Assembly (NCBI RefSeq): GCF_000144645.1
Contig: NC_014377.1
Coordinates: 1,736,001 to 1,800,000, forward strand
Source: Thermosediminibacter oceani DSM 16646
Lineage (GTDB): Bacteria > Bacillota > Thermosediminibacteria > Thermosediminibacterales > Thermosediminibacteraceae
Direction of reading: 5' to 3'
DNA length: 64,000 bases
Shown here: positions 12,002 to 13,009 of the stretch, piece after piece
Numbering within the stretch: position 1 is the first letter of the stretch
Layout: the number at the start of each line of letters is the position of its first letter
Program-made: the position numbers and the translations under genes
Notes under the pieces: model-generated
Databases searched by the model: none
What the model was told of the DNA's origin: nothing
What the model saw: the letters and a program-made list of their open reading frames with translations, nothing else

Positions 12002-12003
12002 CA

Positions 12004-12031
12004 AAAAAAGCCATAGCGCGAGCTATGGCTT
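12004..12031 (-). terminator. Terminator between convergent permease and sigma genes
   Basis: AAAGCCATAGC and GCTATGGCTTT form a strong hairpin. The minus-strand transcript ends in an eight-T run, so it mainly terminates the sigma gene; the plus-strand side has only a short CTTT tract and may serve the permease operon weakly. Confidence 0.85.
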
Positions 12032-12457
12032 TCAGATTGCACGCAGGTATTTTTTCAACTTACTCAAAGCCCTGTTCTTTATCTTATTTACCGCCGGCTG
12101 GGATATCCCCAGCCTTTCGGCTACTTCTTTCTCGGTGGCACCTTCAAAGACCGTCGCCATTATAACTTTTTGCTGCCTTGCCGTCAGCATCATCAGAGCT
12201 TCCCTGACGAATATCCTGTCTTCCACCCGTGACAGTACATCGATCCCGTCTGCCAGGGTGTCTATCAATTCCGGAGATTCGCCATCGTTATCCCTGTCCA
12301 CTCTGTTGTTTAAAATCAGGAGCTCGTGTTGTTTCAGTTTTTTCTGCTTCAAATAAAGTCTTCTCGCTTCTCTCTTAAGTCCCTTTAAAAACCAGGCCGC
12401 AATCCTTGCGTCTTCGGGGTCGAGGTCGAGTTCGTAGAATTTGGGGATACTGACCAT
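12032..12457 (-). CDS. Sigma factor region-4 protein (SigO / Tn916-Orf7 type)
   Basis: The 141-residue protein carries a clear sigma region 4 at its C-terminus: residues 85-140 include LTARQQKVIMATVFEGATEKEVAERLGISQPAVNKIKNRALSKLK-type helix-turn-helix for -35 recognition. The N-terminal half is charged and has no recognisable region 2. The ATG follows a GGGGAGGTG site. It lies 77 bases after the region-2-like gene at 12535-12801 and shares its riboswitch leader. The arrangement parallels Bacillus SigO-RsoA and Tn916 Orf7-Orf8. Which promoters it directs is unknown. Confidence 0.8.
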   Translation of the reverse strand: MVSIPKFYELDLDPEDARIAAWFLKGLKREARRLYLKQKKLKQHELLILNNRVDRDNDGESPELIDTLADGIDVLSRVEDRIFVREALMMLTARQQKVIMATVFEGATEKEVAERLGISQPAVNKIKNRALSKLKKYLRAI

Positions 12458-12534
12458 ACAGCTTCACCTCCCCGGTTTATTCCCTTACCATATAAAAGAG
12501 GAGACATGAAGTCGTATTATAACCCCCTGTAAAA

Positions 12535-12801
12535 TTATTCTTGCTTTTTTATATCGTTTTTCTCCCTCAGAGAAGCCAGATAGCGATTCAGTTCTTCCCT
12601 GCCCCACCTGGTATCGGGCTGGTAGCGCTTTACCGCCTTTACAATCCACTCCACCAGGTTGGAATACATTTCTCCGTTACCCACCCTGCGCGTGTATTTT
12701 TTAACTATGGGCACAAACCTTTCAACTAGCTGGACAAGGGCCTCCTCATCGCCGTCTTTTGCCCTATATATTAATTCCCTAAGCTTTGGTTTCATCCCCA
12801 T
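12535..12801 (-). CDS. Region-2-like sigma partner (RsoA / HTH_16 type)
   Basis: The 88-residue protein resembles sigma regions 1.2-2.2: GDEEALVQLVERFVPIVKKY corresponds to the 'GDxxAfxxLyxRY' start, and LVEWIVKAVKRYQPDT to the core-binding helix ending in RFDP. The region 2.3-2.4 DNA-melting part is short or absent. In Bacillus, RsoA plays this role with SigO. A c-di-GMP riboswitch precedes the gene. The ATG at 12801 has GGGGGG about 12 bases upstream, a long spacing; an internal ATG two codons later is possible. No conjugation genes accompany it. Confidence 0.7.
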   Translation of the reverse strand: MGMKPKLRELIYRAKDGDEEALVQLVERFVPIVKKYTRRVGNGEMYSNLVEWIVKAVKRYQPDTRWGREELNRYLASLREKNDIKKQE

Positions 12802-12851
12802 ACCAAAAAAGTGCCCCCCTTTCCGAGTCTATATCCGAAAACAAAAAAGAC

Positions 12852-12895
12852 CCGCCACCGAAAAAGAGAGCGAGCCAGATCGTTTTGGTCAGCGG
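12852..12895 (-). terminator. Possible riboswitch-controlled terminator before the sigma pair
   Basis: On the minus strand the 3' side of the aptamer P1 stem (CCGCTG) can pair with TGGCGG, which is followed by GTCTTTTTT. Use of the P1 strand would make terminator and ligand-bound aptamer exclusive. The helix includes G-U pairs and a long loop, so this is tentative. Confidence 0.4.
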
Positions 12896-12978
12896 CAACC
12901 AGGCTGTCATAGTGCAAAAGCACCTTAGACCCTATGGCTTTGCGCCCCCACCTTTCGGTGAGTTTGCCCTTTTCGCTG
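12890..12978 (-). promoter_or_regulatory. c-di-GMP-I (GEMM-I) riboswitch upstream of the two-part sigma factor
   Basis: Read on the minus strand, the aptamer shows the class-I landmarks in order: P1 strand CAGCG, AGGGCAAAC, a CACCGAAAGGTG hairpin with GAAA tetraloop, GGCGCAAAGCC, the tetraloop-receptor stem with TCTAAGG and GACAGCCTGGTTGC, and the closing strand CGCTG. It begins about 180 bases before the ATG of the region-2-like gene, on the same strand. Confidence 0.9.
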
Positions 12979-13003: not shown

Positions 13004-13009
13004 ATTATA
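13004..13009 (-). promoter_or_regulatory. Probable -10 box for the riboswitch-sigma transcript
   Basis: A TATAAT lies about 25 bases upstream of the aptamer on the minus strand, in very AT-rich DNA. The matching -35 position (about GAATTT) is poor, which could mean a weak promoter or use of another sigma. The remaining DNA between 13010 and 13136 shows no gene. Confidence 0.45.

Follow-up and report, generated by a model that had tools for sequence, protein, structure and literature searches.

The window analysed here, a 64,000-nt stretch of the genome (2.28 Mb, single contig) of the heat-loving bacterium Thermosediminibacter oceani DSM 16646, carries a class-I c-di-GMP aptamer upstream of two adjacent genes whose products are homologous to consecutive parts of a sigma70-family factor. 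The aptamer, the sigma homology, the point at which the factor is split and the conservation of the arrangement were all computed, and on balance we hold it to be reasonably probable that the leader is a riboswitch–terminator through which the ligand turns the operon off, and that the two sigma halves act together. From these results we infer a mechanism in which the leader of the two-gene operon would contain both a transcriptional terminator and a c-di-GMP-I riboswitch. When c-di-GMP is lacking, P2 of the aptamer would refold with the 5′ arm and loop of the terminator to form an antiterminator and both genes would be transcribed, whereas in its presence the aptamer would stay folded, the terminator would form and the sigma factor would not be made. 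Once made, the ORF1 and ORF2 halves would act jointly on RNA polymerase, binding it and guiding it to a small number of promoters. The best-studied c-di-GMP riboswitches stand on structural genes or large operons. Where a sigma factor has a riboswitch of its own, the second messenger would be translated directly into changed promoter use, and an entire gene programme may in this way be under the control of a single signal molecule.

The leader and its two-gene operon

An initial annotation of this DNA had proposed a class-I c-di-GMP aptamer in front of an operon encoding two sigma halves, and this core of the proposal is borne out by the covariance model, by the profile comparisons described below and by conservation across families. 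On the minus strand, RF01051 matched over its full length with 84.5 bits (E 3.3e-15), far above the gathering score of 35, and P1 is formed by CAGCG (12978-12974) paired with CGCUG (12894-12890). The motif AGGGCAAAC of the window aptamer, which corresponds to GGCAAA in intact ortholog aptamers, carries a G and not an A at the ligand-contacting position; this G corresponds to G20 of Vc2, and the choice of G or A at this position separates c-di-GMP from cGAMP sensors. Binding of c-di-GMP by the leader, with an effect on expression, is a prediction from sequence for the window riboswitch.

The unit reads, in order along the minus strand, aptamer, internal terminator, ORF1, ORF2 and final terminator (Table 1), and ORF1 and ORF2 are the only genes between the aptamer and the final terminator. 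Other species show the same layout of aptamer and split sigma genes. Thermosediminibacter litoriperuensis is the closest named relative found (ORF2 identity 95%), and both genes are under purifying selection, the dN/dS between the window and the ortholog locus L001, a comparison of two species, being 0.12 for ORF1 and 0.09 for ORF2. The host genome has genes for two GGDEF proteins.

Table 1. Features of the riboswitch-led sigma operon, in window coordinates
Feature	Position	Strand	Basis and remarks
Candidate promoter, TATAAT-like -10 hexamer upstream of aptamer	13004..13009	-	Weak; sequence inspection; not conserved in L001
Class-I c-di-GMP riboswitch aptamer	12891..12978	-	RF01051 match and P1 pairs
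P2 and adjoining segment UCACCGAAAGG-GGGGGCG, predicted 5′ antiterminator strand	12943..12961	-	Unconstrained fold, duplex energy
Terminator hairpin GGCUCGCU...GGCGGGUC	12849..12876	-	dG -11.1; U6 at 12848-12843
Predicted 3′ antiterminator strand CGCUCUCUUUUUCGGUGG	12855..12872	-	Overlaps terminator 5′ arm and loop
ORF1, 88 aa, putative N-terminal sigma half	12535..12801	-	PF12645 HTH_16 family; family profiles
ORF2 ribosome-binding site GGGGAGGTG	12465..12473	-	Read from sequence; within 77-nt ORF1–ORF2 gap
ORF2, 141 aa, putative C-terminal sigma half (region 2.3-like segment onward, linker, region 4)	12032..12457	-	
Operon-end terminator, AGCCATAGC/GCTATGGCT strong hairpin and U run	12003..12030	-	Read from sequence

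Several further riboswitches were seen in the window and elsewhere in the genome. A second c-di-GMP-I riboswitch of the window (49307-49219(-), 64 bits) is followed at about 96 nt by a gene for a sigma-54-type AAA+ activator, which would be another direct link from c-di-GMP to transcription initiation in the same window, and a SAM riboswitch (97 bits) lies at 61461-61347(-). Outside the window, c-di-GMP-I riboswitches precede CheW-like and chemoreceptor-like genes (L005, C1:472131-472224(-)) and a type IV pilus assembly (GspF/PilC-like) gene (L006, C1:1935836-1935923(-)). The genome also holds decayed relatives of the system itself. A decayed copy of the window riboswitch and terminator is followed by a transposase-like gene (L009, C1:1606665-1606753(-)), and 8 kb from it there is an intact ORF2 paralog that has no ORF1 partner (near C1:1614606-1614983(+); L020, L041) and lies near an Rv2525c-like glycoside hydrolase. 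Elsewhere, insertion-sequence genes stand between the halves of a second, broken ORF1–ORF2 pair (L042, C1:2226873-2231730(+)).

Two sigma halves and their single-chain relatives

Searched alone, ORF1 gives a sole Pfam match, to PF12645 HTH_16 (26 bits, cut-off 22), a family that also has an unnamed match in B. subtilis, together with weak matches to the start or part of region 2 in the SigY/SigI/SigF models. Family profiles were therefore built. A profile of four rows retrieved relatives across the phylum and also picked up full-length sigma ORFs through their region 2 (E 1e-4 to 1e-3), and the 21-row family (A4) matched SigG-type sigma factors over residues 21-88 at E about 1e-5. When compared with hhalign, the family aligned to columns 2-75 of the single-chain homologs, a set of nine proteins of 170-213 aa holding both parts (A6), at E 5.5e-21, so that the region 2 core (1.2-2.2) is found in ORF1 both by the SigG-type profile match and by hhalign. 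On the strength of these family profiles, ORF1 is assigned as the N-terminal sigma half, comprising regions from about 1.2 to 2.2. Its AlphaFold model, of modest confidence (pLDDT 70, pTM 0.46), has helices at 7-15, 19-40, 44-59 and 68-87, and the five best PDB matches in a fold search with it are all region 2 of E. coli sigma-E; since their E-values are above 1, these matches are only consistent with sigma region 2. Searches with ORF1 by tblastn gave no homolog among plasmids and one weak, unannotated match among phages.

In ORF2, region 4 is present as Sigma70_r4 (PF04545, E 6.6e-12), a sequence match was obtained in PDB at E 3.1e-11, and the structure model matches sigma factors in the fold search with E down to 3e-4. 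ORF2 holds more than region 4, however, because from residue 12 onward it aligns with positions 46-165 of TIGR02937, the general sigma70-ECF model; its family covers columns 67-177 of the single-chain homologs, region 4 included (hhalign, E 6e-28).

The ORF1 and ORF2 families thus align to consecutive and nearly non-overlapping parts of the single-chain homologs, and on SigE/F-type factors the ORF1 match runs as far as column 105, with that of ORF2 setting in at column 107. From this consecutive mapping, the cut in the sigma factor is placed by sequence comparison between regions 2.2 and 2.3. A break inside region 2 changes the description of both proteins: the 88-residue product, earlier called region-2-like, does have kinship with sigma region 2 in the profiles but would not be a whole region 2, and the 141-residue product, earlier called a region-4 protein, does contain region 4 but would extend further, from a 2.3-like segment. 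Both forms can be found within one GTDB family (f68), with a split pair at L091 and a single chain at L102. Split and single-chain relatives occurring side by side reveal at what point a sigma factor can be divided; they are also natural pairs for testing how the halves rebuild one polymerase specificity factor. As far as can be judged from the sequences, the pair works like a two-subunit sigma factor.

It could also be that no working sigma factor is made, with ORF2 acting independently as a region-4 DNA-binding regulator and ORF1 being an accessory or HTH protein. One might think so from the formal Pfam match of ORF1, which is to HTH_16 alone, from the intact but partnerless ORF2 paralog elsewhere in the genome (L041), and from the retention at L078 of ORF1 beside a truncated ORF2. 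We nevertheless regard this as improbable, given the consecutive mapping onto single-chain homologs and standard sigma factors and the adjacency of the ORF1–ORF2 pair, which is kept across families. The genome that harbors L078 (G288) carries two copies of the system with damage that is complementary, ORF2 being truncated in one and ORF1 interrupted by a TAG stop in the other (L084), and because of this complementarity the remaining halves might work in trans. A candidate new fusion, the r2 ORF of L082 (229-234 aa), was rejected because it contains a run of masked bases.

Terminator, predicted antiterminator and probable direction of the switch

A weak terminator had been noted behind the aptamer in the initial annotation, and it is present as a 28-nt hairpin followed by six U (Table 1). 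The hairpin is identical in the window, in L001 and in L110, the last from another genus; in all three it stands 11-14 nt past the aptamer, and a run of five or six U comes after it. Between the two genera the adjoining spacer differs while the terminator is identical. What had been inferred in addition from a possible entry of the P1 strand into the terminator, namely that the ligand switches the genes on, is not supported: P1 and the local terminator have no overlap, and in the ligand-free fold the partner of the terminator is P2, which predicts an OFF switch.

In the ligand-free fold of the whole leader, the two predicted antiterminator strands, UCACCGAAAGG-GGGGGCG and CGCUCUCUUUUUCGGUGG, pair over about 18 bp. 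The probability of the terminator is 0.00 in the free fold and 0.88 when the aptamer is barred from outward pairing (0.72 at 60 C), although insulating the aptamer in this way favours the local terminator by construction; folding of L001 and L110 gave the same shift between free and insulated aptamer. The free fold has an energy of -50.9 kcal/mol, as compared with -44.2 kcal/mol for aptamer plus terminator before any ligand bonus, a gap that ligand binding could close. The antiterminator duplex has an energy of -32.2 kcal/mol, and only 8 of 1000 shuffled aptamers reached a pairing with the terminator as strong as this. When the leader was folded in a series of lengths, the antiterminator started to appear just before completion of the terminator arm. 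The free-fold antiterminator, the energies, the shuffle test and the length series together favour OFF, and the folding models predict that c-di-GMP terminates transcription at the window leader. The same sign of control is given by the Cd1 riboswitch of Clostridioides difficile, which lies over the flgB operon containing sigD and in which the ligand causes early termination, that is, an OFF response (PMC5386303, PMC3649979, PMC9262584), and this precedent over a sigma operon also favours the OFF reading. Both are class-I c-di-GMP riboswitches by which the ligand lowers, or in the window is predicted to lower, a sigma factor, but SigD is a single chain encoded by one gene of a large flagellar operon, whereas the sigma halves of the window are alone in their unit.

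An ON switch would result if the 3′ strand of P1 entered the terminator unless held in P1 by c-di-GMP. The P1 3′ strand CCGCUG can in fact form pairs with CGGUGG in the 3′ arm of the terminator, a long hairpin using this strand scores -18.3 in L110, and among homologous aptamers both directions of control are known (PMC9262584). In addition, the riboswitch before the type IV pilus assembly gene of the same genome is probably ON, since the P1 strand seems to be part of its terminator. We still find this direction unlikely for the window, although it deserves to be kept in mind: a local terminator that spares P1 is present here and in the majority of orthologs and would therefore persist when P1 closes, and the free fold prefers the P2 antiterminator.

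The preferred OFF mechanism has difficulties of its own. The antiterminator requires the opening of P2, a stable hairpin, and kinetics could block this step. Since its strands are identical in the three relatives, covariation could not test it, and static folding of the leaders of L077, L078, L079, L080, L084, L098 and L002 predicted no switch. For these reasons the switch direction could differ between lineages. One could even suppose that riboswitch and terminator are relics and that the operon is effectively constitutive or autoregulated, as might be suggested by the decayed leader and gene copies of this genome, broken by insertion sequences, and by those several orthologs without a switch in static folding. 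This is very improbable in our view, as the bit score of the window aptamer is high (84.5) and the terminator is identical in two genera in which the adjacent spacer differs.

Distribution, neighbours and relation to known systems

The surroundings of ORF1-family matches were scanned with Rfam at 30 loci (29 above 40 bits, and L112 at 29.7), an aptamer being counted if RF01051 or RF03167 matched the same strand no more than 700 nt upstream. A c-di-GMP-I aptamer lies upstream in 19 of the 30 loci, spanning nine GTDB families, and 11 loci are aptamer-less; a Peptococcaceae MAG (L002) adds another aptamer-led case. At a chance rate of about 0.0015 aptamers per locus (assuming ten aptamers per genome, a generous density), occurrence in nine families is far from chance, although a binomial figure overstates the certainty because the loci are not fully independent. 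Aptamers are found upstream of single-chain homologs too (L093, L094, L095), which means that the aptamer is associated with this sigma family and not solely with its split form. Two of the 19 aptamers (L093, L094) are eroded, with the 3′ end lost into coding sequence.

In Bacillus subtilis, one sigma factor is divided between two proteins, SigO supplying the sigma4 part and RsoA the sigma2 part, and transcription needs both (PMC8103513, PMC10028694). The window pair resembles SigO-RsoA in that neighbouring but separate genes encode the sigma2-like and sigma4-like parts, but it is riboswitch-led, whereas the consulted parts of the same two papers mention no c-di-GMP riboswitch. A cited paper title moreover places in RsoA a 2.3-like segment contacting SigO, while in the window pair it is the second protein to which such a segment aligns. 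We liken the pair to SigO-RsoA by layout and description, and do not file it as a member of that family; nor is it filed with Tn916 Orf8-Orf7, named in the initial annotation as a similar two-protein layout. Single-chain homologs of 170-177 aa have the sigma2-sigma4 layout of group V clostridial sigma factors (TcdR/BotR/UviA type) and match a group V model weakly, and some of them adjoin holin-like proteins, including PF10960 BhlA holin; the window pair differs from group V in being split and riboswitch-led. The earlier statement that no case was known of a c-di-GMP riboswitch controlling a bipartite sigma factor agrees with our search for the split case, since the open-licence literature yielded no description of such a factor with a c-di-GMP riboswitch of its own, but for sigma genes as such there is the precedent of Cd1 (flgB-sigD). 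The aspect that looks new is thus the dedicated riboswitch on a split sigma factor.

A recurrent neighbour of the system is a membrane protein of 95-109 aa with no Pfam match above cut-off and, in some cases, weak phage-holin matches, and BhlA-type holins (PF10960) adjoin a single-chain relative. Also recurrent are YCF48/BNR propeller lipoproteins, Cu-amine-oxidase-N proteins, Rv2525c-like glycoside hydrolases and an amidase. We infer that these surface, wall-active and holin-like neighbours would be the best regulon candidates. It is tentatively proposed, with somewhat more doubt than confidence, that the system is a conserved regulatory module: a sigma factor divided within region 2 would be turned off by a c-di-GMP riboswitch, and in several lineages this unit would be joined to a holin-like protein and to secreted or wall-active enzymes, so that one second messenger gates a whole surface or secretion promoter programme.

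The ECF-like promoter element GGAAC-N17-CGTCTATA precedes the aptamer in L078, L079 and L084, with a CGTCTTAAA variant in L083, and it also precedes neighbouring secreted-protein genes; genome-wide it is enriched over a reversed control in G117 and G288. As a regulon motif it was rejected: it is also present in order-mates lacking the system and in front of ordinary ECF sigma genes, and may thus be the element of a different sigma factor; the window genome does not have it. Several other aptamers have upstream promoters that look sigma-A type, as does the promoter of the window gene upstream of the operon, which encodes a secreted peptidoglycan-binding protein (14689-13229(-)). This protein has two near-identical repeats where its counterpart in L001 has one (486 vs 319 aa), a doubling that appears from the sequence to be a recent tandem duplication. 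Serine-recombinase-like genes lie near the system in L077, L079, L080, L084 and L098, which suggests carriage by mobile elements.
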